DNA of 64,000 bases from assembly GCA_964036195.1 (NCBI GenBank), contig OZ038458.1, forward strand, positions 24,565,832-24,629,831. Reading direction: 5' to 3'. Both the position numbers and the translations under genes were made by a program. Of this stretch, positions 145 through 55,924 are shown piece by piece. The DNA is from Sphaerolaimus hirsutus (lineage: Eukaryota; Nematoda; Chromadorea; Monhysterida; Sphaerolaimidae). Position 1 is the first letter of the stretch. Each line of letters opens with the position of its first letter. A model generated the notes under the pieces. That model worked only from the letters and a program-made list of their open reading frames with translations. It was not told where the DNA came from and ran no database searches.

Positions 145-3100
145 ATTTTCCCGATGTAGATTGGGTGGTGCAAATGGACTGCGCCAGCGATGCCGATGAA
201 TATATTCACAGGGTGGGAAGGACGGCTAGATATGCGAACTCAGGTGTAGTTGATAGGGTTGGCCGATGTTTTTTTTAAACGTTTTTTATTTAAAAACATC
301 ACGTCCGAAATGTTTTTTTTTTAAAAAAACATCGGCCGAAATTTTTAGTACTAAGCACTAGGTATTTTGCAAAAATTTCGCGCGCAAGCGCGCAATTTCA
401 CACACAAATTGTCATTGGTGGTTGTTTTCATTGGTTTTGTGGCATTTTTAGTATCAAAGTATCCATTTCTATCTGCTACCATGGGTTAATAAGCCGTAAT
501 ATGTTGCTGTAGTATAAAATATTGAGGTAATGTGCTTCCATGTACCTCCACAGTGTGTAACATCACTCCCAAAGTAACAACCTCCTTTTATAACCTTGTT
601 TGATCACTATTCCGTGCCGAACTTTACGTGAAATCATGAACATTCAACTATAAGGCGATATACGAATGATATGTCGACAAAAAATGGATATTTTTGACAC
701 AAATCACCACTTATAATGCTATCCCATGGCTCCACAGACATTATATGGTCATATGTGAGCAAAAGTGGGTGTCCAAAAATGGTAAAATTTCAAAAATTTT
801 AAGTGTAAATGTATATATAGTTCACTTAATGAATTTATGTAGAGGGTTGTTTACACTTCCGAGCTTACAATAATTTAAACATTTCAGTTCTACTTCGACG
901 ATGGTTTTGGGCGATTCGGTGGGCGAACGTGGCGTTGACGTTTTCGGCTACGTCGGCAACGTGGCACGTGCATTTCCGTTTTTCCGGTGCCCTATTGTGT
1001 TATGTGTGTCTTTTTTGGCCAAGGAAAGGATTGGAGGTATTGAGGATCTGACACAAAGTTGACGCTGTGATGTAAATAGTTGTTTTTATTTGTTTAGATT
1101 TTTTTAATTAGGTAGTTTTTTTAAGAAAGTGAGACAAGTGAGTTGGCAACAATTTTATTTGTGACAGTTTAATTTAAAAGTATTTTTTCTATTCTTACTA
1201 GCGGTTTGGATTGCATAACAAAGTTTCAGTTATTTTCCCTAAGTAAAAAGAGTGACGCTGCGGTTACGTGTCGTAGTGCGTGAATGGTCAGTGATAACTG
1301 AGGGCACATAGGTTGAATTTTGACTAACTTTCGCTGCATTCTTTTGAATTGCAGGCCGTGGCTATTGATCTAGTATGTATTGTGCATTGCTGCATTTCCG
1401 GATTGGGAAACAAAAGTTAATTTACACGCGATTTTACAAAGGTACACTGATTATAGAGGTGCGATGATGATTGGTGTTGAAAATGAGAGGTAATTAAAAG
1501 AATCGAGTCTAACTCGACAGGCATGATCGCATGTCTAAATGCCTACTCCCTTGGCTTGTTGTGAGAACAGCCCAGTCCGCCGATCTCATCGAAACAAGCA
1601 CCCATACAGTGACAAGTGTACCTATTTTTGAGTGAGTTGAGCAGTTCGGTATTTTCGGGGTGTGGTTTTTGCACAGTGCGTATGGGATCAAAAAGCCGTG
1701 GCTGACTAATTAATATTCTGGTAGCAGAATGAGTGGTGTAGCAGCGAGAGTGGTCATTTTCATGGTAAGTGCCTTCGGTAGTTAATGGCTGTTGCGTTTC
1801 GGCATGTGGCAGTGGATTCACTTGAGTTTGTTTTTTTTTTGTTTTAAACTTCAAAAAGTCATGCAATCTAAACATGCATTTAAGCTACAAAGATTGAAAT
1901 TTATAAACTTTCAAGTTGCCAATCATTTGCGTTCGTATTTCTGTTAAGCGTTATACCGACTTCATATTCATTTTAACTTTAGGTTTGGTAGGGAATAGGT
2001 AAAACTCGAGTATGTTAATTTTTATTTGATTTTACGTTTGCAACTTCGCTATTTTTTTATCTACCTAATCCTAGATTGAATTTTTTTTGTATTTCCCTTT
2101 CCCCTAGAAAACTGATAACTTGACATTTGGATATTTAGGAATTTATGCAAATTTCGTGGTTGATCTTTATTATACAAAGAGATGAAATAATAAGCCGCTT
2201 GTTTTTCCTGTTTTCTCCCCGAATATTTTGATAAGTGTAAAGGTGATCTGATTTGAGTGCGTATTTATTTTATCACCCTGATAGAATTTCCGCTAAGAGT
2301 CTTTAAAACGGTACCGTAATTCATTTTTTCCTTGACAGTCAGTGTGAAAATTAATTTCGTTCGCCTTACCGGTATCCTAATCTTATCATGGATTATCCCG
2401 CTTACGACATTTTTTCGTTGTGTATTAATAATACGTGTGCTTCTTACGCTTTGGATATCAACGTCATTTTCGTTTATTATACGCTCTTTTTGCTGATGGG
2501 ATTACTGTTCGCGTGCTTATTTGTTTCGCTAATTGCTGTGTGTTTCCCCGTTCGTGGAGGTGGTTTTGGGATTTCGGTAGAGTTCGCTGAGTAAAATTTG
2601 AATCGCCCGCCATTTTTTTTCGCGCTAAAACAAGTTTTTACAGTATCTCGTGTGTTTTTCCTGTTCTTTTTATTCTTGTCGCATTCGTTCATTTTCTTAT
2701 TTTTCTATTTTTATCCTCGCTCTTGTTCCCAACCCGATTTTTGGCGCGTGAATTCTTTGTGTTTTTGTGTAGTTGATCGACGTATCCTGTAAACTGACGC
2801 CGTGAATAATTTTAGGTATGCCCGTTTTAAAATTCCGTGTGTCTGTAAAGTCGTTTGTAAGCATGCTTCTCGTGGTATGTGGAAGTGTTGTCTGGACTTG
2901 GCTTATGTTGTTGCGTATAAAAGCGTACCGTAATTTAGAGTAGGGGTCGATTCAGTCGAAATTGCTTCGGTTTCATTTTCTTGGAGTTTTTTCGAAGGTT
3001 TTGTGCCGCTGGTTAGAAACTCGCTCTCAGTGTGTTCCCTGTGTTCTATCTAAATGTGTGAATTCTGAGTCTAAAAATCGCCTAAAATAAAATCTCTTCT

Positions 3101-6100
3101 AAAAACTTCTGTGTAAATTAGACATTCAACTAATCGCTGGTGCGTTGATAAAGACGCCATTCGCTAAAAAGCTAACTTAATTGACGTAGCGTACACCTGT
3201 GATATTCACTTCGGTGAATTCACCATTGTGCGTTGCGAATTCAATCGGTAGTCGCTTTTCCGTTGCCTTACTTTGTCGCTCATCCAACGAGTAGGTGTGA
3301 GATCGGTAAAACTTGGCAGTTTGCCATAGTGGAATTTGGTTGAGTAAAAAGTAGCCGGTGAAAATTCATGACAACTGGTAGCAGCGAGTGGTTTGTTTAA
3401 TATTCCCAGTGAGTTCAGGCGACTGATCACCGTTTGACAATCGCTGGTGAGAACAAACGAACCACCGCCCGGCTGGAGGAACGGAAGGCTACCCGATCGA
3501 CGCAACCGATAAGCACGGATATTTTTGTTTTGGGACGTGAAACTGACGAAATTATTAGTGGGCAAAAAAGGGAAAAGCGGAAAAGTAAGAAAAAATCGAA
3601 ATTGGTTCAGTTCAGTACGGACGCGCACTGTTCTGAACCGGGAACCGCTGAGTTGAGTGACGAACCTAACGACTTTGACGTCAACTGCTGGGTGGACGCG
3701 GAAGGACCGGTCCCTGAAAGAGGTGCGGAGGAGTCATTCCCGACCTGTGAGCAAGGCAAGCCAAGTGCGGGTGCGGAGGTGCCATTCCCGACCGTAGGGC
3801 AAAGTAAGTTAGGGCACCGAAGCGCGAGTGCCGGGTACCGAAGCGCGAGTACCCAGTCGTCGAGTGAGTGTGTGTTTTTCCGGTATTCTACCTTGAGTAT
3901 GGCGCATGCGAGCGGTAGTGGTGTGAACACGGGTCCCGATGTGGTGCAATTGTTGATTCAAGCGAAAAATTTGACTTTGAATCAAATTAATTCGTCGATA
4001 GTGGGGAATTCGGTTCAGGGGTCAGAATGGAACCTTAGTCAGGTTGTGACTCAAACGGTGAGTATTGCCGCTTATTTGTATAATCAGCGACCCATGAGTT
4101 CTTTGGAAAATGGGAACATGAGTGATAATGACGAAAAATTAGTGTCATTAGTAAAGTTAGGTGTTGACTGCTATAATTTGCGAAATGATGTGAGTCAAAT
4201 TGCGGACGCGATTAATGCATTTGCCGAGTATATTCATTTAGAAAAGCCTGACATGCAAGCGATTAATTCTATAATTAGCGCTGTTTCTAATTCGGGAGGG
4301 TGCTCTACCGCTACCACACCACCTATACCTGCTGTGAGTATGATTGCTACTAGTAGGGAGGGTTATGCTGCTGCCATGACCGCGCTTACTGGACAGGTGA
4401 TACCATTTAAGGGGCGCGCTGATGATAAATTTGCTGATTGGCGTAAAAATTGGGACGCAGTTTGTGAGGCGTTGCCAATTCCGACGGATGAGCGAAAATC
4501 GCTGCTTCCGGTTTATTTGCGTGACAGCGCGCGTTCGATTTACATGTCGCATAAGAGTGAATTGATCAATTTGGATTATGAGGAGTTCATGGATGCTTTG
4601 GAACGTTATTATACTAACCCCATTTCGGAGCATCATGCGCAAAGGGAAGTAATTAGTAGTGAGCAGGGCGAAGATGAAGATGTGTTAAATTGGTCAGTGC
4701 GGCTGGAGAAGATTATAAAACGCGCTTTTCCGAAACTTTCAAAACTTGAACGCGAAAAGATGGCAGTGGCGAAATTTGTTAGTGGATTGTATCCTGATAT
4801 TCGTAGGAATGTATCTATTACTGCTGGGGCTAAGTTTCAAGATGTAGTTAATAATGCGCGCACGCAAGAAAGTTTTCTGGAAATTGATAAGGACAAAGTG
4901 GGTGGTAAGAAAAAGTCAAAATCCAACGCTGAATTAGTTTCAGAAGCCACCAATTCGGTAATCGAGCGAATTTTTGCTTTAGGGGGTGCGGGAGCTTTCG
5001 GAAATTCCCCGCCCGTTCCGGCGGCGGCGGAAAATCCAAAGTTTGAGGAACAGCGAGTGAAATTGGAAGAACTTTCTAGGCAGTTAGAGGATAAGGATAA
5101 GCGTTTAGTTGACTTGGAAAAGCAATTGATAGGTAACAATGCTGCGAAACCAGTTTCCAAATTTAGGCCGCGTAAATTTGATGAGGGCTGTTATGAATGT
5201 GGGGCAGATGATCACTTTCGCTCTGATTGTCCTAAATTGACAGAAGAGGAAAGAGCGCGTTTTAGAAATTTTCGGCGCGGCCCGTCGCAACGGCCAATGA
5301 ATAACTTTAGAGGTCCAGCGAACATGATGCGCTCTGCACAGCAACCTGTATATTCCATGCAAGCGGCGCCTTACCTGTATTATCCCCCTCCCGCGCAAGT
5401 GTCAACTACTGGTTGGTCTCCAGTGCAACAAGTTCAATCATCGCAAATGGCCATTGCGGCCCCTCCGTCAACTGAATTGACTGCGTTAAATCCGACGCGC
5501 GTGTCTGCGAACTCAGTGAATCATGCACGCAGCGTGCAAGAAAGTAAGGAATATGTGCGCATGATTAGGGTTTTACCAGGTCTTGAAAGTTCGGATGAGG
5601 AAGCAGAGGATCCATGCAATCCGCCTGAAATAACGCCGCAAGAACATCAATTCATGCTCGAAAGAGAGGCTTGGATTATGCCTTGGGTTTATGCGCGTTC
5701 GTTAGATAGCATGATATTTCGAACTAAGTGGTGGGCTCAATTGCAACACATGGGTTTGCAGGGGTTAAATATTAGCGGGTTTTGTGAGCATGCTGATGAG
5801 CATCCGCATGACGACCCTGAGGACACGTTGACGTATGTTAAGTTAGCAGCGCTGTTAGAATTGACCATGCATACGTTTAGGTGTGAACCGCCGGACATTA
5901 GTTTGTCGCGAACGTCATCTGACTCTGAATTGTATGTGTTGTCCGATTATTGTGAAGCGAGCGTGCCAACTTTGTACCGAACGTGGTCGGAACCGAGTAT
6001 GTTGCCCAGTGTGTTGAACCGTGTGTTTTTCCTGTGCTGTCTATTTACGTTTTTTGCAAGTGTTGACGCCCTGGGTGTTCCAAGTGGTGGCGTTGTTAAG

Positions 6101-9100
6101 AAAAAAGGAGTGATATTCGTAGGAATGTATCTATTACTGCTGGGGCTAAGTTTCAAGATGTAGTTAATAATGCGCGCACGCAAGAAAGTTTTCTGGAAAT
6201 TGATAAGGACAAAGTGGGTGGTAAGAAAAAGTCAAAATCCAACGCTGAATTAGTTTCAGAAGCCACCAATTCGGTAATCGAGCGAATTTTTGCTTTAGGG
6301 GGTGCGGGAGCTTTCGGAAATTCCCCGCCCGTTCCGGCGGCGGCGGAAAATCCAAAGTTTGAGGAACAGCGAGTGAAATTGGAAGAACTTTCTAGGCAGT
6401 TAGAGGATAAGGATAAGCGTTTAGTTGACTTGGAAAAGCAATTGATAGGTAACAATGCTGCGAAACCAGTTTCCAAATTTAGGCCGCGTAAATTTGATGA
6501 GGGCTGTTATGAATGTGGGGCAGATGATCACTTTCGCTCTGATTGTCCTAAATTGACAGAAGAGGAAAGAGCGCGTTTTAGAAATTTTCGGCGCGGCCCG
6601 TCGCAACGGCCAATGAATAACTTTAGAGGTCCAGCGAACATGATGCGCTCTGCACAGCAACCTGTATATTCCATGCAAGCGGCGCCTTACCTGTATTATC
6701 CCCCTCCCGCGCAAGTGTCAACTACTGGTTGGTCTCCAGTGCAACAAGTTCAATCATCGCAAATGGCCATTGCGGCCCCTCCGTCAACTGAATTGACTGC
6801 GTTAAATCCGACGCGCGTGTCTGCGAACTCAGTGAATCATGCACGCAGCGTGCAAGAAAGTAAGGAATATGTGCGCATGATTAGGGTTTTACCAGGTCTT
6901 GAAAGTTCGGATGAGGAAGCAGAGGATCCATGCAATCCGCCTGAAATAACGCCGCAAGAACATCAATTCATGCTCGAAAGAGAGGCTTGGATTATGCCTT
7001 GGGTTTATGCGCGTTCGTTAGATAGCATGATATTTCGAACTAAGTGGTGGGCTCAATTGCAACACATGGGTTTGCAGGGGTTAAATATTAGCGGGTTTTG
7101 TGAGCATGCTGATGAGCATCCGCATGACGACCCTGAGGACACGTTGACGTATGTTAAGTTAGCAGCGCTGTTAGAATTGACCATGCATACGTTTAGGTGT
7201 GAACCGCCGGACATTAGTTTGTCGCGAACGTCATCTGATTCTGAATTGTATGTGTTGTCCGATTATTGTGAAGCGAGCGTGCCAACTTTGTACCGAACTT
7301 GGTCGGAACCGAGTATGTTGCCCAGTGTGTTGAACCGTGTGTTTTTCCTGTGCTGTCTATTTACGTTTTTTGCAAGTGTTGACGCCCTGGGTGTTCCAAG
7401 TGGTGGCGTTGTTAAGAAAAAAGGAGTGTCAGATGAGTGGATTTTGACCGTGCGAAATTTTCTTGAGGGATTTATCGCTGGAATGTGCACTTCCGTGTTT
7501 TTGAGATATATTCTGCCCGCTTTGTGTGAACTGGTGTTGTATTTAGTGTTCGCAGTGTGTGATTGGATAAAATTGAGAGTGTTGCGGTTTCAATTAAATC
7601 GCATGCAAGCGATAGAAAATAGGCGCAATCCTGCAAGGGGTGCGACCCCCGTGACACCGCCGCAAAAGTTAAATCCAGTTAGCGCTGACAGTTCAGGGTA
7701 TGGCGCCGATATTGAAGAAACGCCAGTGAGTAGATTTAAGCGTTTGCCGCCGCTGCGCGTTCCTAAAGGTTCTGCCGTCATGGAAAAGGTGAATGTAGTC
7801 ACGCTGACCAGTGAAGAAATTGCGAACATCAAAAGTATTACGGCTAAGCGTAAAGAACTCGTGCCAATTTACTATAGTCCGTCGATTACGGTAGAAATTG
7901 AGGGGAATGAATACAAAAGGTGTCTGTTGGACACAGGTGCGATGAGGTCATTGTGCAGCCCGCTGGTGTTGGCTAGGCATCGAAATAATTGCATAGCGTT
8001 TGATGAGGTCACGCCTGTGGGGGGATTGCAAAGCGCGTCTCAATGCAAATTGCAAATTGAGGGTCAGTTGGAACTTCAAGTGATGATTACCGGGAAAGCA
8101 TTTTCTATTGTGTTTCAGGTGATTAGCGGGTTGTCGGACGATATTTTATTGGGCGCTGATGTGTTGAGGCATATGGTTATTGATATGCCTGCGCGTGAGT
8201 TGCGAATTGAGAGTGGTGATGCGCGTAAAAAGTTGATTGTGCCTTTTGACAACCCGTCGCCTGTAGTGCAAGAACGGCATATTTATGCAGTTGTGACTGA
8301 ACCGACTGAAATTAAGCCGCGGCATGAAACGATAATTAGTGCGAAATTATCTGAACCAATTGATGAATTGACGTTTGCGATTGAGCCTTTGAACGAATTT
8401 CATGTGAAAACGGGTGTGTTTGCAGCTAATGCTGTTTATGAAAGCGCGAGTGAATTATTTCCGGTGAGGTGTGTTAATGTGACTGAGGTGCCAGTAAAGT
8501 TGCAGGTGGGCCAGAAAATTGCCATCGTAGAGCCAGTGGAGTGTGTTTTACAAGTGCGTCGAGGTGATCCGCCTGCTGAGTGGGTGCGAGAGTGCCGCGA
8601 GCGTGATATGAGTTTTACCGATACTATACTTGAAGCTAGTGAGGAAAAAGTACCAACGAAGGGCACTGTACCTTCAAAAGCGGCGAATACGACTATGAAA
8701 GTGGTTTGTGCCGATGGGAGGGAAATGGATTTTGAAGTACCGGTTGAATTGGATGAAATTAAGCGCCAGCAATTAAAAGAGTTAATTTTGACTCATCAGG
8801 ATGCTTTCGCCAGGGATAAGTATGATTTGGGATACAGTGAATTGGTTGATTATCGACTTCAGTTGACTAGTAAAATTCCGGTCGCGTGTCGAATGTATAG
8901 GTTGAGTTTGGATGACCAGCAGTACTTAGAAAAGCATTTAAGTTGCCTGCTTGAGCATGACGTCATTGAACACAGTACGAGTCCGTACTGCGCGCCGACA
9001 TTAGTTGTTACTAAGCCGGATGGTGCCAAGCGCATGGTGATAGATTATCGACGATTAAATGCAGTAGTTCACGCTCCCCAATTTCCGCTGCCCAGATTAG

Positions 9101-12100
9101 ACGATACGATAGAGTCATTGCACAGTTGCAAATATTTTTAGCAGTGTCGATATCAATCAAGCGTTTTACAACATTGCGCTGCATCCGGATGATAGACATA
9201 TTACGTCGTTTCGTAATTCTTTTGGTCAATTTCAGATGAAACGCTTGCCGATGGGATTAAAGTGTTCCCCGGCTTTAGCGCAGCGCTGTTTTGAAGTTAC
9301 AATGGCTGGATTATTGCATCGAAATGTGTTGGTATATATAGATGATTTGCTCATTTACAGTAGGTCATGGGAAGATCATTTGAGTGATATAAGTCAGGTT
9401 TTGTCGCGTTTGATAAGTAGCAGTTTTAAAATACACCCAAAAAAGTGTTTTTTCGCGCGCACAACTGCTGTTAAATTCCTGGGTTATATGGTAGGGCGTG
9501 AAGGGATTTGTATACCGGATGACAAGCGAAAGTATTTGAGTGATTGGCCGCTACCTGTATGTGTGCGTGAAGTTAAAGCGTTCCTAGGCGCTGTTGGGTT
9601 TTTCCGGAGATTAATTCATAAATGTGCTGAATATGCCGCTCCTTTGTCTAATTTAACTCGAACAAAAACTGAATTAGGAACTGAAAAGTATAGCGGAAGT
9701 ACTCCCGTAGATTTAAATGCGAACCCCGCCGCTTTGGAAGCTTTTAATAAGTTGAAAGTGATGGTGGCTGAAAGTCCCTGTATACAGTATCCTGATCCCA
9801 GTAAACCGTTCATAATTATTACCGATGCTTCTAAAGTTGCATTAGCTGGCATTTTAGTACAACGCGCTGAACCTGCCGCCGCTTTGCATGCGTGTTCATT
9901 TTATAGTCGAAAACTTTCCGAAGCGCAATCCCGATGGCCTGCAATTACGCAAGAAGCATGTGCTATTTTTGAGAGCATATGCAATTGGCATTGTTATTTA
10001 GCGGGCCGGCCGTTTGAAGTTTGGACTGATGCGAAAAGTATTTCATGGGTAAAAAATCCAAATTTGGAAACCCATCCCCATACAGGGGTGGAACCGATTT
10101 GCGCTTGCTATTCAATCATATCAAGTTACTTTTAAGCATTTGCGTGGGAAAAGTAACGAATTGGCTGATGCTTTGTCGCGCCGGCGTGATGCACCCGTTG
10201 AATTTGATGAGCGTGTTAATTTGGACGAAGCGTTTGAAGAATATGCATTTGATATACCTGTTGATGAATTGGCGAGAATTTTGACTGAGGAAATGGCGTT
10301 GTTAACATCTGAGGAACATTTGGCTTGTCAAGCGGTAGCTAAGGCCATGGCGCGATTGGCTGCTGTTCAAAATTGGCTGAAACATGCGAAAATGAAGTCT
10401 TTGGAACCGTCAGTTACGGTAGCTACTGAACTGCCAGTGGCAAGCGTTGCTACTGTGCGGGCGCCGCATCCAATGACAATGCGTGTGCGAAGTAAAAAGA
10501 AGGTGGAGTCCAATTCTGAAAATGCTTTGAAATCGCCGCCCAAAAGTGACGATGCGCCTAAATTAATGGCTGGTGGCCGCCGTTCTGTTCAATTAATTAA
10601 GAAACCGGAAAAACTCGATGCTTTACCTCCTCCCATTACTCCAATTGAAGAGTTGTCGCGTTTGCAAAAAGAAGAACCGTATATAATTACAATTCGTCGC
10701 ATGTGCGAGGAATCTACTTTGCGTAGGGCCCCACCGTTTTTCATTGATCAATTTGATGTGATCAGGCGTGATGCAGACCCGTCAATATTAGTGGGTGAAA
10801 GGAAATACGACCCTGCGTGCATTCCCCAGTCACTAGTTGTCACTGTGTTAGAATTGGCTCATAATCATCCCACTGCTGGACATTTAGGTGTGATGAAAAC
10901 GTTTGAAAGATTGCGCGAATTTGCTTGGTTTACAAATATGCGTCCAGAATGCGCTAGATGGGTTTCTACTTGCCCTTCGTGCAACGCGAAGAAAGGATTG
11001 CGCCGCTCAATGAAAACTCAAATTCAGAGCCGGAAAATCGCTAAGTTTCCTGGTGATTTTATTGCGATTGATGCAGTAGGGCCATTGCCAATTACCGAAA
11101 AAAGGAATGTGCATGTATTGGTATTTGTGGATCAATGTACGCGTTTTGGTTTAGCAGTGCCTGTTCCTAATTTGAAGCAAGATACTGTGGCTATTGCGTT
11201 TTTGCAACATGTGTTACCGATTTTTGGTGTGCCCGCTGTAATCTTATCTGACAATGCACCAAGCTTCATTGGCGGCATTTTTGCGGAATTGCTGCGTTAT
11301 CTAAATACAGTGCAGCATAAGTGTTTCAATTATACGCCAAAGGGGAATGGTTTGGTTGAGCGTAGGAATGGCGTCTTAATGGAAATAATTTCACATTATG
11401 TGAATGGCTCGCATTCGGATTGGGACAAACACTTAGGCGCCGCTGTCTATGCGTATAATACGTCTATGCACCCCTCTATGAAAGTGACACCATATGTGTT
11501 GCTATTTGGATCAAATTCTCCGTCACTTTGGGAGCGTATGATCGAGCCGACGGGAAATGGCACCGATAAGACCGATAAGCCGATGGCGTACAGTCCCTTT
11601 GTGTCAAATTTAGACGCGCGACTTTCGGACGTCCGCACGGCCGCGCATTCGGCTTTACAGCGCGCGCAAGAAAAAGAGTGTTTTTATGCAAATCGCAGTG
11701 CGCGCCGCTTGAATTGGAAGCCCGGTCAATCAGTTCGTGTTTATTCGCCCCGAATTCTTCGAAAGTTAGGTCGCGTTAAGAAATTCACGCATCATTATAT
11801 TGGCCCGTATGAATGTTTAGATTATGTGCATCCCATTGTGACCGTGTTTAATAGGTTGTCTAAGAAAACTTATACCGTTCATGCTGATCGCGTTAAACTG
11901 ACAAATGAGCCAGTTAATCCCACTTATTCGCAGATTTTCGGTTAAAAACCCTGAGATTTTCCGCTCTTCAACCTAAAGTGCTTCAAGTTAATTATTCCGT
12001 TCGAAAATTCAATTAAAATTTATTTTTGGATTATTCGCGTTTAATTCTGACCGTCAATTCGTGGTGAGTTCGGGGTTGCAAATTTGGTATTTTTGATTGT

Positions 12101-15100
12101 GCGCAAGGTAATTTTGAGGTAAAAAGTTGTTCTTTATGTAAAAGGTAAAGCGCGAAAATTTTATCGGTGTTATTAATTGTTCGTTTCTAATTATCGCCGC
12201 AAGTTTAATTCGTTAGTTATTCATACCATCGCATTTAGTTCGTTCTAAATTTGTTCTTTAATTTCATTCTCATTTTCGCCCGTTTCGCAACAAAATAAAA
12301 ATTATTTTTGGCGCAATACGTTCAACGTAGTGCGTTGAAAATAATTCGCAACTTTTCGATTAGGGTGTCGCTCAGACCTTCGTGCATTTCGGTGCCGACA
12401 TTCTGGGTGGCGCATTTTAAGTAGCAATAAGTTGTGTTTTCCGGTGCTCTACTTAGAAGTGTGAAATATGACTAGTTCGGGTGGCGTACCTATGGGTGGG
12501 TATGGAGCGAGTTCCAGTTCGTACCGTGGCGGGCGCATAGCCAAGGCCCCGCTCAAGTCGTGGACTTCTCATGGAAAACAGGGCGGTGACACTATTCCGC
12601 CGCTGCCCTACAATCCTCCTCGAAACGCCCGATCGACTTGTCCTGAATTTGTCATCAACCAGAAGTTGTCGGGAATAGTGGATCGAGTTCATGTCGGTAA
12701 CGAGCAGCGTCCTACCAGTTATCAATGCCACATTCGTTTCGACGGCGATGCGCAGGCGCTTTTGGAAAGTTATCCGGAGTGGTCGGAAGCGGAAACGGCT
12801 TATCCCTTTTTCACCTATTCGGTCAACAAAGCGGAGCGCGCTCGTGAGCGGTCGGTGCAGAAAATTTTGAGGGAATATCGCGAGACTAACGAAGCTTACG
12901 ACATGTTTTTGCCGCTTGTCCGCCACGGCATGCATTTTGTCGCGACTGGTATCAGTAGGGTTAGCGCCAATCCGAAATATTGGGAATTGCGAGGCGTCAC
13001 AATTATGAAAAATGACGCTCAAATGCCATTGTTTTTGGGCCGCCCTGTTGTCATTGTTTCGCAAGGACAGGTTGACCTTTCCGTCGATGAGCCAGCGTCG
13101 GAAGTTTCACAGAGAGGACAGGAAAATCGCGAAGGATATCATCCTTATCCGGCCAAGTGGAGATATTTGCGTTTGAGGGCAGCGTTCACCCCTTTGCGGT
13201 ACATCAGTGCACCCCCCTTCAAAGGCGCCGACGAGCGGGATCCGGGCCCTGAAAAGTTGATTTTTGCGCACAGCGAAAATGTCATGGAAAGTGACATACA
13301 CCCGCACGCCGGACAATTAGGTGTGGCGCATGTAGAGTATCACGCTTTTGATGACGCCGGCAAGGTTAACAACTTTTATTGGGGTCATGCGTATGGCGTG
13401 CGTATTTTTTCGGCGCGGCAAATTGAGGCTGGTATGGAGTGGAAGGGCGAAATGAATAGAAATTGTCTCACTTCTCAGCTGCAGCTCCGTTCCATCTTTT
13501 TGGCCGCTGCTAACGTGTGTCACGAAGCACATTTGCGATACACTGCGACTAGGGCGAAAGCGGTGCGCGCGCAGGTGACTTGGCAAAATGGGCCGCGGGG
13601 ATTAATTGCGATAATTAGGTGGGAGCGCGTGCATTTGAATCCAGCTGCTGCGATGCGCGACACGGCCGAGTGGCACAGGAATAAGGCGCAGGGCTACATG
13701 TTGAATTTTACTTCGCCCATGTCGTCGCTACAAATCGTCGAAGCTGATCCCCGGGGGGAAGAGCGTGCTCTGACTGGCCGCCCGCAAATAAATTTACGCA
13801 CGGTCAGCGCCGACATCACTGCCGAGGCGGTGCAGCTGGTCGCCAAACCGGATGTGTTGGTGCCGCAGGCGCTGTCGCCGCATTTGCTGCCTAATTGCGA
13901 TTACATGGTGCGCGGTTCCGCTTTGTCGCCTAGCTACAATGGCCGCATGGAAATTTTGGAGCGGTTGTGCATAATGGGGCCTAGTGGTTACCGGCCAACC
14001 GAGAGCAACACCGGAATGCTCGCTGTGGAAGACCAGGTCAAAATGGCGGTAGTGCTGCACAAGCAGTTGAACCAAGTTGAGACTGATTGGCAGCGCACGC
14101 TCGAAAAAATTGAGTCTGACGGGTTGTATGCCGAGGTGCGCAGAGGCACATGCGAAGATTTATTGCAAGCGCATCAGGGTGATTTTCGGCCGCAGGAGGG
14201 GCAGGGGCGTGTGATTGCGTCAGTTATCAAGTCTGTGCGAAAAACTGCGCCGCTATTGTTGATGTGTGATTCACCGTTCGGTTCCGGTAAAACGACTGTG
14301 CAAAGTCAGTGTGCGTACGCGGTTGCGTTCAAATTTACTGAGAAAAATGACCCGCCGAACCCGCTGAAGAGGGAATTGCCCTCTGATGCAAACAAAAATG
14401 CGCTTTACCACTCCACAATGATTACTTGCAGTGTGAATTCGGCCGCTGATGAGTCTGCCAGACGATCGTTGCAAAGTTTGGCAAACATTGGTCTGCCTAA
14501 TTTGGAAACGGTCGTGGAAGTTTTGCTGCGCAGTAGGGAGAGGTGGACTGCGATGGATGATAAGCCAAATTTTCAAACACCTGGCTATGCGCGTTTCTGT
14601 CAGGTGCGCGCTGCTTTCGCGATTCGCGTGCTGAGTCCATTGTTGGAAGTTGACGATCGCTACGTCGATATGACGCTCCAGCAATTGCCGCTGCTGAATT
14701 TGATCGCGCAAAACATGCCCATGCATGTGATCCGATTGAATGACCACTGGCTAACTGCTTATGAATGCTTTACCGCTCAACGCCATATTTGTGACACTTT
14801 GAACGAGATCATCGCGAACAATCAGCACCCCGCCGACATTTTCGAAGCCATTCGGTCGCAGTTGCCTTTGGTTCGTTTGTCCATCGACGAAGACGACGAG
14901 GATGAATTGGTGCCACTGGACGATGGTCAAGAGGAGGGCGTGCAGGCGTGGGGGGCCGCGGCTGGCTTTGTCGATGACAACCAGGTGTGGGGCAAAATTT
15001 ACAAGCGCGAAATGCGACGCCTCGTTAGGGTGGCTACTAGGTTGCATAAGGTGGTGTTGAATGTGCTGCAGCCAGGCCAAGTCCATGTGACCTTGGATTC

Positions 15101-18100
15101 ATCGCGCGATAAGCGACTGCAAGTTTTGAAATATGCCGCGGTATTTGTGGACGAGGCGTCTTTGGCGGATGAAACTGCCATTTTTGGCGCTGTTTCAAAC
15201 GCTCGACTCCCCCACAATGGCTTGGTGCTTTTGTTTGGCGATAGCAAGCAGTTGACCCGAATGGTCAGGCCGCATTCATGGATCGCCCCGATCCTGAAAC
15301 CTGATCCATCGTTGATCAACAGGTTGGTGGAAGGTGTGCTGTGCCCAATTCTGAAGCTCGAGACTGTCTTCCGCGGCCACGACGCGCTGATTCAAGCGAA
15401 TTCAGTCGCTGCGTACGATGGCCAATTGCGCGCGTTCCACGAATACAGTCAGTGGCGAGATACTTTGCCGCTCATGGCTTGCGGTGCAGATCAGGTGCCT
15501 TTGTCTTCTGTGATCGTGCACATGGGTTTCGAAACGAGCGAGGGCGTGTCTGTTAAAAATTTGACGGAGGTAGACATTGTGGTGCGCGCTGTGCAGCAAT
15601 TTGTCATTTTGGCGCTGAACAGCGAGGGCGAGAATGTCGTTCCGTGGAGTGATTTAGAAAGCGCCGATTCGCTGCTGGTTGTGTGTTTCTATTCAGCGCA
15701 GGAGAGAAGAGTGATTGACGAATTGGTGCGATTGAGCTGGGCGCAGTTGTTAGGGGGTGAGGGGTTCCCTGGCTATTTAGCGACCCCAGCGTTTTGGCGG
15801 AAAAAAGTCATCACTGCTGATCGAGCGCAAGCTCGTGAAGCGCACGTGGTGATTGTGTCATGTGTGAGGGGTAGCGCGCCGCGCGTGGACGCTACTGGAC
15901 ACCCGTCGCAGCGCGAGCGCGATGTGATGGACAGAATTGGCTTTTTGGCGATGCCGGAGCGGTGCAACGTGGCCACGTCTCGCGCCAAAACGGCCAGAGT
16001 CGTGATCATGAACGCCGCTACTGTGCTGCATTCTGAATTTTTCTGGCGCTTTGTGGCGGTGGAATTAGGAAAGGGACGCGTTTTTGCGTACCACGAGCGA
16101 CATTTGTGGGAAAGTGACCCGTTGGCTAGGTTTCTGGGCCACTGGAGAAGTGCCCCGGTCGATCTGCAAGAACCCGCTCCGCCCGTGCAAGAAGAAGAAG
16201 AAAATGAGGTTCCGCCGTCGCCGGAAGAAGTTCAGGAGGTGGATGTGAGCGAACAGCGAGCGTCCCCTCAGCCAGACGCTGACGTCGTTCCCGCTCCCGA
16301 TTCCCCAGACGTGCAAATGTTGCCGCCGGAAGAGCAGGAGGAGGAGTCAGAGAAAGTTAAGCCGCGCGCGGATGAAAAAGTGAGTTGTTCTCGGTCTCGG
16401 CGTCGGTATCGCGGTCGTCGTCGCTCTCCCTCGTCGAGTTCTTCCTCTTCCTCTAGTTCTTCGTCGGGTTCGTCAAAATCGGGATCGAGTGAGACCGATT
16501 CGGCCTCGGAGTCTGAACACGCGCCGCCCGTACCGGCACACAAACAGAAAACGCTTCCGGAGGAGGAAGTGATGGAGGTGGAACAGGAGCAAAGTGAACA
16601 AGGTGCTCAACAGCAGGAACCAGAAGTGGAAGGTCAACGGCAAGAACCAGAGCCAGAAACTGAAGAGGCTAACAATGCAGTCATCGGACAGAAATTGGAC
16701 GAGTTAATTCAAATGGCGGGCGAGTTGAACACCGAGTTGGACGCTGAGCGACAGCAACAGTCCATGAATCCAGACAGGCAGGCGCTCAGACAAATGGACG
16801 CCATCCGGGAAGAGGCCAATGACGTCGAGCCCATGCAAGAAGATGAGCAGGAACAAGAGCAGCCTGAGGAAGTGGCCGCACAACAGCTGCAGCAACCTGT
16901 TCAGGTTGTTGTAGTTGGCGCGTCACCGCCACCGCAAGAGGAACAGAGTCCGCCCCCGCCAGTGACTCCAACTTTGGCAGGTTTGGAGCCAGAGGAGGAG
17001 ATGGAAGCGGAGTAATGGTAATTTAGGTGTACAGGAATTTTTTTGTTTTTGTTTTTAGTTGTTTTTGTTGAGCGAACGTTTTACCAGTAGAATTTAGCTT
17101 TTGTTGAATTGAAAATTGAATTTTCATTGAGTTTTACCGGTTCAAAAGTTTTTTTGGTGTTCTCAACAAAGTGTGGAAAAATGCGTAATGGTTGTCAACA
17201 AATTTAAAATTGGCTTAAATAGTTCTTAAAAAACGGGAATTTAGTTCAATTCGTTTCTTTAATAGTTTTGCTGTGTTTCGATTTTAGCCGGGAGGTAAAA
17301 TGTATGGCTGGTGGAGTTTGTGAGCAAAAGTGGGTGTCCAAAAATGGTAAAATTTCAAAAATTTTAAGTGTAAATGTATATATAGTTCACTTAATGAATT
17401 TATGTAGAGGGTTGTTTACACTTCCGAGCTTACAATAATTTAAACATTTCAGTTCTACTTCGACGATGGTTTTGGGCGATTCGGTGGGCGAACGTGGCGT
17501 TGACGTTTTCGGCTACGTCGGCAACGTGGCACGTGCATTTCCGTTTTTCCGGTGCCCTATTGCTTTATGTGTGTCTTTTTTGGCCAAGGAAAGGATTGGA
17601 GGTATTGAGGATCTGACACAAAGTTGACGCTGTGATGTAAATAGTTGTTTTTATTTGTTTAGATTTTTTTAATTAGGTAGTTTTTTTAAGAAAGTGAGAC
17701 AAGTGAGTTGGCAACAATTTTATTTGTGACAGTTTAATTTAAAAGTATTTTTTCTATTCTTACTAGCGGTTTGGATTGCATAACAAAGTTTCAGTTATTT
17801 TCCCTAAGTAAAAAGAGTGACGCTGCGGTTACGTGTCGTAGTGCGTGAATGGTCAGTGATAACTGAGGGCACATAGGTTGAATTTTGACTAACTTTCGCT
17901 GCATTCTTTTGAATTGCAGGCCGTGGCTATTGATCTAGTATGTATTGTGCATTGCTGCATTTCCGGATTGGGAAACAAAAGTTAATTTACACGCGATTTT
18001 ACAAAGGTACACTGATTATAGAGGTGCGATGATGATTGGTGTTGAAAATGAGAGGTAATTAAAAGAATCGAGTCTAACTCGACAGGCATGATCGCATGTC

Positions 18101-21100
18101 TAAATGCCTACTCCCTTGGCTTGTTGTGAGAACAGCCCAGTCCGCCGATCTCATCGAAACAAGCACCCATACAGTGACAAGTGTACCTATTTTTGAGTGA
18201 GTTGAGCAGTTCGGTATTTTCGGGGTGTGGTTTTTGCACAGTGCGTATGGGATCAAAAAGCCGTGGCTGACTAATTAATATTCTGGTAGCAGAATGAGTG
18301 GTGTAGCAGCGAGAGTGGTCATTTTCATGGTAAGTGCCTTCGGTAGTTAATGGCTGTTGCGTTTCGGCATGTGGCAGTGGATTCACTTGAGTTTGTTTTT
18401 TTTTTGTTTTAAACTTCAAAAAGTCATGCAATCTAAACATGCATTTAAGCTACAAAGATTGAAATTTATAAACTTTCAAGTTGCCAATCATTTGCGTTCG
18501 TATTTCTGTTAAGCGTTATACCGACTTCATATTCATTTTAACTTTAGGTTTGGTAGGGAATAGGTAAAACTCGAGTATGTTAATTTTTATTTGATTTTAC
18601 GTTTGCAACTTCGCTATTTTTTTATCTACCTAATCCTAGATTGAATTTTTTTTGTATTTCCCTTTCCCCTAGAAAACTGATAACTTGACATTTGGATATT
18701 TAGGAATTTATGCAAATTTCGTGGTTGATCTTTATTATACAAAGAGATGAAATAATAAGCCGCTTGTTTTTCCTGTTTTCTCCCCGAATATTTTGATAAG
18801 TGTAAAGGTGATCTGATTTGAGTGCGTATTTATTTTATCACCCTGATAGAATTTCCGCTAAGAGTCTTTAAAACGGTACCGTAATTCATTTTTTCCTTGA
18901 CAGTCAGTGTGAAAATTAATTTCGTTCGCCTTACCGGTATCCTAATCTTATCATGGATTATCCCGCTTACGACATTTTTTCGTTGTGTATTAATAATACG
19001 TGTGCTTCTTACGCTTTGGATATCAACGTCATTTTCGTTTATTATACGCTCTTTTTGCTGATGGGATTACTGTTCGCGTGCTTATTTGTTTCGCTAATTG
19101 CTGTGTGTTTCCCCGTTCGTGGAGGTGGTTTTGGGATTTCGGTAGAGTTCGCTGAGTAAAATTTGAATCGCCCGCCATTTTTTTTCGCGCTAAAACAAGT
19201 TTTTACAGTATCTCGTGTGTTTTTCCTGTTCTTTTTATTCTTGTCGCATTCGTTCATTTTCTTATTTTTCTATTTTTATCCTCGCTCTTGTTCCCAACCC
19301 GATTTTTGGCGCGTGAATTCTTTGTGTTTTTGTGTAGTTGATCGACGTATCCTGTAAACTGACGCCGTGAATAATTTTAGGTATGCCCGTTTTAAAATTC
19401 CGTGTGTCTGTAAAGTCGTTTGTAAGCATGCTTCTCGTGGTATGTGGAAGTGTTGTCTGGACTTGGCTTATGTTGTTGCGTATAAAAGCGTACCGTAATT
19501 TAGAGTAGGGGTCGATTCAGTCGAAATTGCTTCGGTTTCATTTTCTTGGAGTTTTTTCGAAGGTTTTGTGCCGCTGGTTAGAAACTCGCTCTCAGTGTGT
19601 TCCCTGTGTTCTATCTAAATGTGTGAATTCTGAGTCTAAAAATCGCCTAAAATAAAATCTCTTCTAAAAACTTCGGACCCCTTGGTGTAAATTAGACATT
19701 CAACTAATCGCTGGTGCGTTGATAAAGACGCCATTCGCTAAAAAGCTAACTTAATTGACGTAGCGTACACCTGTGATATTCACTTCGGTGAATTCACCAT
19801 TGTGCGTTGCGAATTCAATCGGTAGTCGCTTTTCCGTTGCCTTACTTTGTCGCTCATCCAACGAGTAGGTGTGAGATCGGTAAAACTTGGCAGTTTGCCA
19901 TAGTGGAATTTGGTTGAGTAAAAAGTAGCCGGTGAAAATTCATGACACATACATAACATCACAGTGTATTGCCACTGTCTGATATACCTATATATTTATG
20001 TTGACACAAGGTCATATCTGGGAGCTTTAAAAAAAACGTTTTTTATTTAAAAAAACGTTTTTTTTATAAAAAAACATCGAGTTAAAAAAAAACGTTTTTT
20101 TTCCAACCCTAGTAGTCGACGGTTTTTTTGTTGATTGTGTGTCAAAATTCAGCTTTCAAAATACAAATTAACAAAATCGCGAATCCGATCCCAGAAAGAT
20201 TTGCCAAATGACATTTTGCAGTATGAAATGTGAACGGCAACCTCCAGTTTACATTTTATGCCACTTTTCTGGCATCCGAGCGTGTTTTTAGACATTTTTG
20301 AAGCGAATTCGAGAAAACCTGTAATAAGAATACTCTGTCCAAAATCCCGATCCGGAACACTAATCTCGATTCCGAAAACTAAAAAAACAATCCCGATCCC
20401 GAAAAGTCGATCCCGTTTGAACCTATTCATATACACCACAGTGATGCCACTTTTGCTCTGCAGGCCGCGCCCTATTGGTTTTGACTCCATCTCAAAAGGA
20501 ACCAATGTTGGAACAACTTGCTGCCAAACGGATACCCATATGCGCAATACGGTGCGTATTGTTGTGGTATCTTTGGCAATAGTCCAAAATATGTGCCAAT
20601 ACTCATACGTGCTTGGTGTCAACTGGTTTTTACGTCAATTTAAATTTGAGTGATGGCTGGCGCGACAATTTTTCCGTGCAAATGCGGCAACATTGAAAAT
20701 AAATAAATATTAGAAAGAACACTTGAACATCGTTAGGCGACCGTCAACTAACTAATTCAGAATAGAAACCAGTCGGCCCAGTTGACAACCGATGTCATTG
20801 TCAACTAGTTTGCGAGGGCCCTTTTACTCAATTTACTTTCCATTCGCAGACCGAATCGTCGGAAAATGTTCAATGCCAGCGTGAAATTGCAGAGCATTTT
20901 GGCACAGGATGCAAATTTAAAAGCGTTTGCACAGAGGGTTGGATGGAATTTTCTTATTTTAAATTTTTTTCCCAAAAAAAATTGAAATTAAAAATTTCCA
21001 GTGCGTCGTGTCGTACATGAAGTCCGTGTGCATGATGTCCAACAAAGCAGTTTTTGACCCGACCAAAGTAGATATCGAGGCTTATTCCCAGTTCGTTTTT

Positions 21101-24885: not shown

Positions 24886-27800
24886 ATGTCGAGCAACATC
24901 GGCCTGTTCGGCAGCAGGAAGTCGCGCGACCGCGACATGCACATGGACGTGCCCTCCTTGGGTTGGTTTGGTGCACCCCCCCCCGTGCTTGTGGTGTTGT
25001 TTTATAGTCTATTTGTAGGGTGGCAGACGGTACGGCCTTGCGGTAAACTGTACGGTACGGTAAATTTTCTTTTTTGCGGTAAACGGTACGGTACGGTAAA
25101 TCTTCAATTTTGTGGTAAATGGTACGGTACGGTAAATCTGAAAAGTGCGGTTCGCGGTACGGTACGGTAAATTTTCGCTTGTCAGAAATGTATTATACCA
25201 ATGCCGGACTACAGACAACTTTTACTTCATGAATTGACAGAAAATTGAATTTTGCAATGTGTTAATGGACTTTAGAACACAATAACAGTGTGATAACATA
25301 GAATTACATTCACCACAATGCAGTGGCTCAATATATAGGCTTTTTTAAGGTGTAGAAGGAACAAATGGAGAAAAATTGCTAAAAGTGGGTGAAAAATTGC
25401 TAAGTGGGTGAAAATGGTAAAAAGTATATAAACACCTTCCCGGTCAGGTCCGGCACCCTATTTTTGATTTCACTCCGGGTGCCCTAACTCCCGCTGCGGG
25501 CGGAGTATAAAGCTGAAAATGGGGGGGTATATACTTGCAACCCCCCTCTACGCTGCATCAATGGGGGAGGCCACGGCGACCCGCTACAGGGTGGGTCGCC
25601 GTATATGCAAAGTTTTTTTTTGGCTTTTTGAGTGTCCCGCACAGGTCCGGCACCCACTTTATTTTGTGACACTTCGGATGCCGTACCTCCAGCTGTGGGG
25701 GTGATAAAGAGCTGCAATTTGGGGGGAGTATAAACAACACCCTCCCATATTATCCCCTACAGGGCGGCCTCCGGCAAATCACTAAATTCCCGGTTGCTGC
25801 GGTTCAATTTCATTTCATTGAAAAAATAAACTGTCCCATCAGGTCCGTCACTGGTTTCTGGTTCAAAAATGAACACAGTCGTGTAGAAAAGACGCAATTA
25901 ATGTGAAATAAAGCGATTAAAGATGCAATTTGATACATGTATCCAAGTTGCAAAATTTACCATGCATATCCAAAACTAATTTTATTTTAAAAGTTGAAAA
26001 ATCGCTCGCTTCCCAGGGTCTCTTTTTGAGCAATTTCGTTTCATCGAAAAAATTGACTGTCCCATTGATATGACATTAAAAAACATGACCACCCAATAGA
26101 TGGATGACAAATAATTCACTTTTTGGAACTTTTTTATTAGACACTTGAAGAGCTGGTTTACGATACTTTAAAGGGAAGGGTTTGATGATTAAAGTTATGT
26201 AAAGAACCATACCTCTAAAATGCCTGCATTGCAAAATTTACTTGGGGGGAATTTTATGACACCATAATGACATCATTTCAGGAACAAAAATTTACAAAAT
26301 TTACACTTTGAAATTCCCCCCAAGTAAATTTTGCAATGCAGGCGTGTTAGAGGTGTGGTTCTTTACATAACTTTAATCATCAACCCCTTCACTTTAAAGT
26401 ATTGTAAACCAGCTTTTCAAGTGTCTAATAAAAAAGTTCCAAAAAGTGAATTATTTGTCATCCATCTATTAGGTGATCATGTTTTTTTAGAGAATAAAAG
26501 AATATTTTAGAAATTTTCACATTAATCTCACATTTTTGAATAGTGTATAGTAGGGGAGGGGTGTTGGTAACACATCCCCAAAATTTTAGATTTATAGCCC
26601 TCCCACAGCTAAAAAATCAGTGGGTGCCGGACCTGTGAGGGACACCAGAAAAGCCAATAAAATTTTTGTACTTATGGCGACCCACCCTCTAAAGGGGTCG
26701 CCGCGACCCCCCAAATTCATGCGAAGTAGAGGGGGGTTCCGTCAATATTTCCCCCAAGTTTCAGCTTCTGGCGCACCATAGAACTGGAGATAGAATGTCA
26801 CAAGTGTCATCAAAAATAGGGTGCCGGACGTGACCGGGAAGGTGTTTAGGTAAGTGCATGCATATGTACCTACAACAAATAAGCTCAAAACATTGAGGAT
26901 GATGTAAAACAACTACAGTGCAATTTGAAGCACATGGCTTGATTTTAAAAACACATTATACTAATGTAAATGGAGAGTTACAGCAATATTGCATGTGGAA
27001 ATGGAAGGGTTTCAAATCAGTCCAAACAATGTTGTCAAATTTGCGCGCTTGTGCGCAAAAAAATTGCAGAACACATCATCTTAAAGTCAATTTTAAGGTG
27101 AATTTTTAAGGTCAATCTGAGTCAAATTTACCGCATTTTCTGCGGTAAATGAGTGCGGTACGCGGTACGGTACGGTAAATTGTTAAAAATGCGGTACGCG
27201 GTACAGTACAGTACATTTCTAAAAGTGCGGTAAACGGTACGGTACGGTACGGTACGGTAAATTCTGCCACCTTATCTATTTGTGACCCTGCAGAATGTCC
27301 TTCGTCATGTAAAATGCACTGTAAGATGGTGAACTAGGTATAAACTACTAGGTACTATGTATACGTAAGGTTTTTTTCTGAAATTTGGAAACTGATAGTT
27401 CAAATGATAGTAATCGCTCCTCTGAAGGATAGATATGTAGGTGATAAATTTTTGCTGGGGCTTCTCATTCGGGCTTCTCAAGGTGTAAAGGGAGAATATC
27501 GCTAAAAATTGTATAAATGTGGATACAGCAATTTTGAATATGAGAATGGTCAGATTTGCAGAAGCGAGTAAAATTTTGAGTAAAACAGAATTTCCCCGAC
27601 ATAGTTAGATTTCTGGACGATTTGGGGAGGGATTCAATGAAGGAGTTGTAAACTCCACACAGCCCTCCATCCAACCCCCCCCCCCACCCTACTAGACGCA
27701 TGTGTGACAACCACTAACTTCCACTACCTTTTCCCCGCCCTACACGCAGGTGCGCCCTACTACGCGCCCCCCACGCAGCCCCCCATGAGGCAGCGGTACC

Positions 27801-55255: not shown

Positions 55256-55924
55256 CTATTCAACCCAATTTCTAATTACTAAGTCAGTGATTTACCAGCT
55301 GAAATGAGCCTACCCTTGGTTATTCATTCTCTGCTAACTCTGGCATAGGCCTTCTCTTCCCTCTGCACGGTGACATTTAGGTTCACAGGGGCAGGAGTGG
55401 CCACACGGAGCTGCCGGTATAGCTAAGATAGGGTGTTGTATGGGGAGAACCCACCATCTGTGATGCTTACTGTACGTCTGGACCTCTGTGGACTTGTTTT
55501 AGGCGTAGTATAAGCTGAAGTAGGCTGTACACCTATTGACTCGCTCTAGGCTTTCGTAAGGGCCCAAACAGTTGTGCTACGTCGTTGTAGATTACTTTTG
55601 ATAGTGGTGCTGTGCCAAGCTAGGACTTAAGTACCTGGACTTGTGTGGTCTCTTACCAGTGTACCGTATTGCTATCCTCACCTGTCTGGTTTAACTTATA
55701 TGACCCTGAGTGTTATTTAGTCATTTTTATGTTAATGTTCTGATTTGGGAAGTAGAAAGGTAAATTGGAAATATTCAAGTACTTTGGAAACTTTAATTGC
55801 AACGTTATTCAAGAAACTTAATTAGTGTAATTCAAGCTTACCCTGGTGCAACTAATTCTCTACTTAATCTATTGGCTCATTCCAGCTAGTGGATCTAATT
55901 AATTCTAATTCTAATTTGTGAATC
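55256..55924 (+). other. Leader of the second LTR element
   Basis: Presumed R/U5 and 5' UTR. TGG-starting primer-site candidates lie at about 55844 (tggtgcaactaattc) and 55875 (tggctcattccag); neither can be confirmed without the 3' LTR. Confidence 0.4.

Follow-up and report, generated by a model that had tools for sequence, protein, structure and literature searches.

The 64,000-nucleotide stretch of Sphaerolaimus hirsutus DNA analyzed here (the window) contains, at 754-19947, a Ty3/gypsy-type long terminal repeat (LTR) retrotransposon, 19,194 bp long in this copy, with an intact open reading frame (ORF) for a putative superfamily 1 (SF1) helicase between its integrase and its 3′ LTR. Judged from its conservation within and between two families of such elements in the host genome, namely that of the window copy and a diverged relative (family 2), this helicase ORF is almost certainly a gene of the element that has been kept by selection.

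The helicase ORF and its class

The helicase ORF (12468-17015, + strand) comprises 1515 codons with no internal stop. In the other two + frames over the same stretch, stops number 64 and 79; 200 mononucleotide shuffles of it give 67 on average and no fewer than 46. It is placed between the integrase (10053-11942) and the 3′ LTR, within the LTR pair (754-3373 and 17319-19947), as an original prediction made from the letters of the window had described. The motifs named in that prediction were all located: GSGKTT at residues 605-610, VDEAS at 894-898, GDSKQL at 924-929, VVIVSCVRG at 1127-1135 and NVATSRAK at 1167-1174. Motifs I, II, III, IV, V and VI, as we take them to be (IV tentatively), are arranged in SF1 order. 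The ORF can be divided into three parts:

12468-14144, + strand: N-terminal part, residues 1-559; no Pfam match; 38.5% identity to family 2 over 312 amino acids
14145-16097, + strand: SF1 core, residues 560-1210, with motifs I-VI; AAA_12 and AAA_11; 43% identity to family 2 over residues 457-1226
16098-17015, + strand: tail and stop codon; acidic, Gln-rich, with an Arg-Ser (RS)/poly-Ser stretch; fastest-evolving part

Among profile hidden Markov models, Pfam AAA_12 matches the helicase with E=3.8e-19 (69.5 bits, cut-off 27), and AAA_11 matches the core scanned alone with E=1.8e-5 (25.1 bits, slightly under the cut-off of 27); in both families AAA_12 is above and AAA_11 below its cut-off. The NCBI model of the IGHMBP2 family gives E=6e-9, far under its own cut-off. 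When solved structures were searched with the core as a single sequence, yeast UPF1 came first (E=6.6e-4), followed by human UPF1 (0.0056) and IGHMBP2 (0.018). A profile of five sequences from the two families gave IGHMBP2 (E=3.5e-6), a '5′-3′ RNA helicase-like protein' (3.7e-6), UPF1 (1e-5) and Sen1 (0.011), the subfamilies being ranked by profile score alone. The same profile search returned no DNA2 or PIF1 chain at E≤1, and Pfam scans of the ORF gave no match to the Dna2 nuclease domain. Likewise, residues 1-559 have no Pfam match at E≤1, the Cys/His zinc domain of UPF1 included; this part has a Gly-rich N-terminus, and there are five Cys in residues 1-477. Assignment of the predicted protein to SF1B, and within it to the UPF1/IGHMBP2 group, is thus supported. 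That is, the UPF1 half of the earlier label 'UPF1/DNA2-type' holds, and the DNA2 half is unsupported.

In motifs I, II, III and VI, all five aligned sequences, drawn from both families, have the same residues, at an overall identity between families of 44-45%. Because of this identity, a working ATPase is favored, and we consider that the protein is very probably an active ATPase and translocase. A protein kept for a structural or RNA-binding role, e.g., as a component of the particle, and not for catalysis, would suit the Gly-rich start and the RS/acidic tail, but is improbable given that these motif residues are unchanged between families otherwise so diverged.

Other identities considered for the ORF and rejected were an env gene, a host retrocopy and a captured viral helicase. 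The viral-type SF1 profile Viral_helicase1 (PF01443) is not listed for the window ORF, and scores 14.7 bits, under the cut-off of 21, for family 2. A Helitron had been discounted in the original prediction, correctly so, as neither a Rep domain nor the PIF1-type helicase family is listed for any of five ORFs.

Copies of the element in the host genome

We searched the 348-Mb host genome for further copies. Because these searches score the best candidates alone, each copy count is a minimum and is drawn from the copies closest in sequence. The window's own copy is one entry in the helicase, reverse transcriptase (RT)-RNase H-integrase and junction counts, and one of the 30 fetched loci.

All 31 copies scored with the helicase protein (the best 31 of 892 candidates) are full length, stop-free and 97-100% identical. 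At each of the 30 fetched loci, the helicase is preceded directly by the integrase end and the spacer (95-100% identical) and followed by the 3′ untranslated region and the LTR start; the flanks of L016 and L032 match in two pieces each, and so contain insertions or deletions. Among the integrase matches listed, one is found 524-537 nt upstream (spacer counted with the stop codon) for 29 of the 31 helicase copies, and in the remaining two, L032 and L039, the integrase was seen in the fetched flanking sequence. A 1-kb DNA query across the integrase-helicase junction gave a similar picture, in that the best 40 of 130 candidates all span the junction, with complete coverage in 39 and 998 of 1001 bases in one. 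The same junctions therefore recur at dozens of separate loci, on many contigs, and the one-off capture that the original prediction had held open is refuted.

A second family with the same layout

A search of the host genome with AAA_12 scored the best 150 of 454 candidates. The top two are host-like helicase exons, presumably of UPF1 to judge from resemblance, with 29-30% identity to the element helicase over 80-92 residues. The other 148 matches score 89-98 bits and have open frames of at least 1300 codons in 99 cases; their assignment to family 2 is based on six fetched loci (six of six) and on the 50 of 51 pol copies that pair with such a match. The six fetched helicases show 43-44% identity to that of the window, over 776 residues in four and over 758 in L005; the sixth, L006, matches in two pieces owing to a stop.

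The family-2 copy C7 has a gag-protease (PR) frame of at least 1542 codons, reaching the edge of the fetched piece, followed by a PR-RT frame of 161 codons, an RT-RNase H (RH)-integrase (IN) frame of 883 codons and then the helicase, i.e., the same order as in the window. Its helicase starts 229 nt behind the last integrase codon, and LTRs of 1675 bp, 99.76% identical, enclose all frames. Identity between family 2 and the window element is 33% in gag, 54% and 73% in PR-RT, 73% in RT-RH, 54% in integrase, and 38% and 43% in the N part and core of the helicase, respectively. A helicase match lies downstream in 50 of 51 family-2 pol copies (the best 51 of 2233 candidates), at 3030-3053 nt in 49 copies and 7141 nt in one; for the copy left over, none is found among the AAA_12 matches listed. 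That so odd a helicase was captured twice, each time into this position, is much less likely than a single ancestral capture; most likely the common ancestor of both families already had it.

In the family-2 copy examined, the gag-PR frame (L040:4374-8999, − strand) also matches a viral fusion glycoprotein (PF24664, E=4.5e-7; 28.7 bits, cut-off 27) at residues 798-1056, which lie after the CCHC knuckle and before the protease. Most of this stretch is missing from the window copy and from its sister copy C3, and the window has transmembrane (TM)-like segments there. The earlier notion that the helicase occupies the slot of env is weakened by the one family-2 copy examined, which has this env-like match within gag-pol as well as a helicase.

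Selection on the helicase

For the 30 copies of the window family, the helicase has a silent divergence (dS) of 0.0423 and a replacement divergence (dN) of 0.0053, and dN/dS is 0.125; at the integrase end of the same copies it is 0.095, and in family 2 it is 0.092 for five stop-free helicases and 0.086 with a sixth, stop-bearing one, all values that are biased low because copies were picked by likeness to an intact protein or profile. None is near 1, and the maintenance that the original prediction had surmised is borne out. By part (29 copies, L038 left out), dN/dS is 0.081 in the N part, 0.120 in the core and 0.214 in the tail. We also sorted variants by how many copies have them in common, counting single-base variant codons and excluding 15 multi-base replacement variants. 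Variants seen in a single copy number 158 silent and 83 replacement (pN/pS 0.156), those in 2-4 copies 64 and 19 (0.088), and those in at least 5 copies 52 and 20 (0.114). Each of the nine distinct gaps in the helicase alignment is a multiple of 3; the 526-nt spacer also has gaps of 1 and 10 nt. Between families, silent differences are saturated (pS 0.747) and replacement differences stand at 0.391, with 329 of 720 aligned residues identical.

The intactness of the window ORF alone proves little, because new copies are no longer tested by selection. Together with the bias just mentioned, one observation speaks against maintenance: the window copy differs from its nearest sister, C3, by 1 silent and 6 replacement changes, so that constraint is not visible among young copies themselves, as is expected of new copies that are past such testing. 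The argument for maintenance is carried by the shared variants and by the second family.

Origin of the helicase

The G+C content at third codon positions (GC3) is 0.586 for the window helicase versus 0.345-0.449 for gag-pol, and 0.64-0.66 versus 0.48-0.52 in family 2. Because this contrast is stable across both families, it is not a sign of fresh capture. Among the 30 copies, pairwise helicase distances track the distances at the LTR start (r=0.82), less so those at the integrase end (r=0.45) and weakly those of the spacer (r=0.24, equalled in 56 of 2000 permutations); joint inheritance, along with a degree of exchange from copy to copy, would fit this.

Searched against a database of 5.8 billion proteins, the full ORF has no relative over residues 560-1260 at E≤1e-3 (7999 scored), and the core alone has none at E≤10 (8000 scored); the integrase gave 3 matches at 22-27% identity among 8000 scored. 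These searches are seeded by exact shared words, and so rule out close, not remote, relatives. Searches of viral contigs, prokaryote contigs, plasmids and PHROGs returned no relative. A search of phages gave one record, the gut phage MT835511.1 (L001 221-3370), whose 1049-residue, helicase-like ORF of UPF1 type shows 25.7% identity to the element core over 47% of that core (E=8e-10).

A one-off or recent, functionless capture of a host helicase gene by a single copy would account for a codon usage unlike that of gag-pol. It is nonetheless very improbable, since every one of the 30 fetched copies shares the layout, as does a second family whose pol has diverged to 54-73% identity, since the GC3 contrast recurs in that family, and since the protein database search yielded no close relative among the sequences scored. 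An older host origin of the helicase is likely.

Structure of the element

Apart from the helicase, the parts of the element in the window are as follows:

750-753, no strand: target-site duplication CATA, left copy (junction letters)
754-3373, + strand: 5′ LTR, 2620 bp; TG..CA ends exact
3376-3386, + strand: primer-binding site, TGGTAGCAGCG, 3′ of the 5′ LTR
3434-6160, + strand: gag frame with PNMA-like capsid (PNMA, E=5.9e-5) and one CCHC knuckle (zf-CCHC, E=0.0055), both under the Pfam cut-off
6100-9138, + strand: second copy of the gag end, two TM-like segments, protease region (gag-asp_proteas, E=0.03, under the cut-off) and RT start
9113-10132, + strand: RT-RNase H (RVT_1, E=2.5e-18; RT_RNaseH_2, E=2.2e-26)
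10053-11942, + strand: integrase, H2C2 zinc domain and rve core (E=6.9e-16 and 2.6e-9); matches to prototype foamy virus (PFV) and Ty3 integrase
11946-12467, + strand: spacer from the integrase stop to the helicase ATG
17319-19947, + strand: 3′ LTR, 2629 bp
19948-19951, no strand: target-site duplication CATA, right copy (junction letters)

Alignment of the two LTRs (99.58% identity) shows 2 mismatches and 2 gap openings. At 31314-31885 lies a related repeat that has no such insertion, and the joined flanks of the element align to it across the insertion point. Near-identical LTRs, TG..CA ends, the 4-bp CATA duplication and this related site together indicate one recent insertion. The primer-binding sequence TGGTAGCAGCG is one that we take to complement the 3′ end of the initiator Met tRNA, and at its inner edge the 5′ LTR of family 2 has a match to window 3361-3394. 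The order PR-RT-RH-IN is present in the window element and in family 2, with weak protease matches (E=0.03 and 0.057, respectively), and the 6100-9138 region shows 54-73% identity to family 2 (tblastn). The top solved-structure match of the window RT is Ty3 RT (E=8.8e-35), ahead of retroviruses, in a comparison where few retroelement classes have structures. By domain order and profile matches, the element is classified as Ty3/gypsy.

The window copy has a 1316-bp tandem duplication through gag (4795-6110 and 6111-7428, 99.85% identical) that is missing from C3, and is either private to this copy or an assembly error. The length of 19 kb given in the original prediction is thus right for this copy, with about 1.3 kb of it due to the duplication. 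Also specific in part to the window is a break between the RNase H and integrase frames at 10053-10132, which most scored sister copies lack. Of the 70 scored copies, 66 list an RT-RNase H-integrase frame of 943-946 codons, interrupted within the match by one stop in 3 of them, and the window is among the other four. Consequently, the helicase is the sole long unbroken ORF in the window copy, as had been said, but this is not a trait of the element.

Within RT, the reading frame shifts at the same codon in the window (9113-9138) and in a family-2 copy (L040 near 3904). Downstream of it, the frame keeps a constant length in those 66 window-family copies and likewise, at 915-919 codons, in all but one of the 51 scored family-2 copies. 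One stop falls in the match in five of the 116 frames, and by arithmetic the frame starts at or adjoining the shift point. Because it is common to both families, this change of frame suggests recoding or splicing, not decay.

The duplication and the frame break, unseen in the sister copies checked, are what one might expect of an assembly artefact, or of a gene nested between unrelated repeats. Set against the target-site duplication, the related empty site and the dozens of loci with the same junctions, however, such an explanation is extremely improbable.

Proposed function

We propose that the helicase is a long-resident third ORF (ORF3) of a Ty3/gypsy clade, whose product would be an SF1B helicase of the UPF1/IGHMBP2 group, driven by ATP. 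Since an ATG of its own lies about 525 nt behind the integrase (229 nt in the family-2 copy) and the ORF is not fused to pol, it would be translated apart from gag-pol, either by reinitiation or from a subgenomic message, spliced or formed in another way; putative splice acceptor sites are present and unconvincing. The enzyme would translocate on the long genomic RNA of the element, or on its RNA-protein complex, clearing structure and bound proteins, and this clearing would let particle loading and reverse transcription of an RNA of about 15-17 kb be completed. An ORF3 helicase acting on the element's own RNA-protein complex is our best overall explanation, to which we would give an even chance. 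Taken by itself, the claim that the enzyme may act mainly on the element's own RNA/cDNA complex falls just short of that; it is favored because the constraint is near that of the integrase and because the element is long.

Almost as likely, and a substantial minority possibility in its own right, is that the helicase would act mainly against host silencing or RNA decay, mimicking or competing with host factors of the UPF1/MOV10 type and stripping small-RNA, Argonaute and decay complexes. The host UPF1-family helicase MOV10 restricts retroelements, as PMC3475670 reports, and PMC6338049 describes a weak suppression of RNA silencing, in a plant system, by viral-type SF1 helicases of insect long interspersed nuclear elements (LINEs). 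An N part without recognized UPF1 domains is also what a decoy or a re-aimed enzyme might have. Conversely, the constraint on the helicase (dN/dS about 0.1) nearly equals that on the integrase, and an arms-race protein might show a fast-evolving face, whereas here the tail alone evolves somewhat faster (0.214).

In weighing our preferred explanation, i.e., action on the element's own RNA, it counts on the other side that elements can also keep a gene that targets host defense. A stronger form of it, in which a dedicated, clade-wide helicase would be needed in replication, both remodeling the genomic RNA processively and displacing host silencing or decay factors, is in our view rather unlikely. 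If true, it would give an LTR element with many copies partial independence from host helicases, and resistance to RNA surveillance.

Other features of the window

An open frame at 55922-63998 has at least 2390 codons, extends out of the window and contains a CCHC knuckle (E=2e-6); it resembles a second large gag-like polyprotein, and has no tblastn match to the frames of the helicase element. Exon-like pieces of amiloride-sensitive (DEG/ENaC) channels lie at 37985-38449 and 48230-48610, one with E=1.4e-4 and the other with E=5.4e-4, both slightly under the Pfam cut-off; they speak for an animal host. A search for the nematode SL1 RNA gave no match, which carries little weight. Two long inverted repeats, at 26078-26487 and 28975-29299, have arms of 177 and 126 nt that are 95-96% complementary, with hairpin-like spacings of 56 and 73 nt, and are perhaps foldback elements.

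Comparison with known systems

LTR elements rely on host helicases or are restricted by them, as with MOV10, and an element lineage with a UPF1-like enzyme of its own lets the role of helicases in retroelements be asked directly. The difference in the env-like domain between families would, in addition, help to separate functions in replication from functions in infection. The original prediction knew of no gypsy element with this layout, and we too found no Ty3/gypsy element with a UPF1-like ORF3 in the open-access literature, subscription papers and Repbase being outside the search.

The closest parallels, described in PMC4686597, PMC5563155 and PMC6338049, are insect retrotransposons that carry SF1 helicase domains, namely TRAS and Jockey-type LINEs, together with two Ty1/copia-associated helicase fusions in Aedes aegypti and Leptopilina boulardi. 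As here, an SF1 helicase is carried and conserved, and roles in cDNA synthesis or in suppression of silencing have been proposed. As described there, however, the insect helicases are of the plus-RNA-virus type and are fused to LINE ORFs or copia pieces, whereas that of the present element is of the UPF1/IGHMBP2 type (AAA_12), forms a separate ORF3 behind a Ty3/gypsy integrase, and occurs in two multi-copy families.

Bdelloid rotifer LTR retrotransposons are similar in having a family-specific, enzymatic ORF3 downstream of pol. The captured types given in the accessible part of PMC5408684 are a DEDDy exonuclease, a GDSL esterase and env, and no helicase ORF3 was found in it. The planarian element Burro, as covered by the portion of PMC6431247 at hand, is likewise large and gypsy-like with extra domains, and an env-like domain separates its gag from its protease in frame, a feature shared with our family-2 copy. 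Its extras differ (MATH/TRAF, BIR, BCL2 and others, mostly in one polyprotein), and that portion describes no helicase ORF3. Crocodilian endogenous retroviruses also carry a captured gene (KIT-ligand or nectin3), and purifying selection has been reported on nectin3 (PMC4299795), but these are vertebrate retroviruses whose captured genes encode host ligand or surface proteins still near their source (about 76% for nectin3).

Host UPF1, IGHMBP2 and Sen1 share the SF1B core, the motifs and the profile matches with the element helicase, which differs from host UPF1 in having no recognized UPF1 zinc domain and only 29-30% identity to the host UPF1-like exons. Rather than a stray passenger, the helicase probably serves the element as a functional component. 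Other elements, too, are known to have captured an ORF3; what is new here is that the captured gene encodes a predicted helicase, its UPF1-type class, its place behind the integrase and its conservation in two families.

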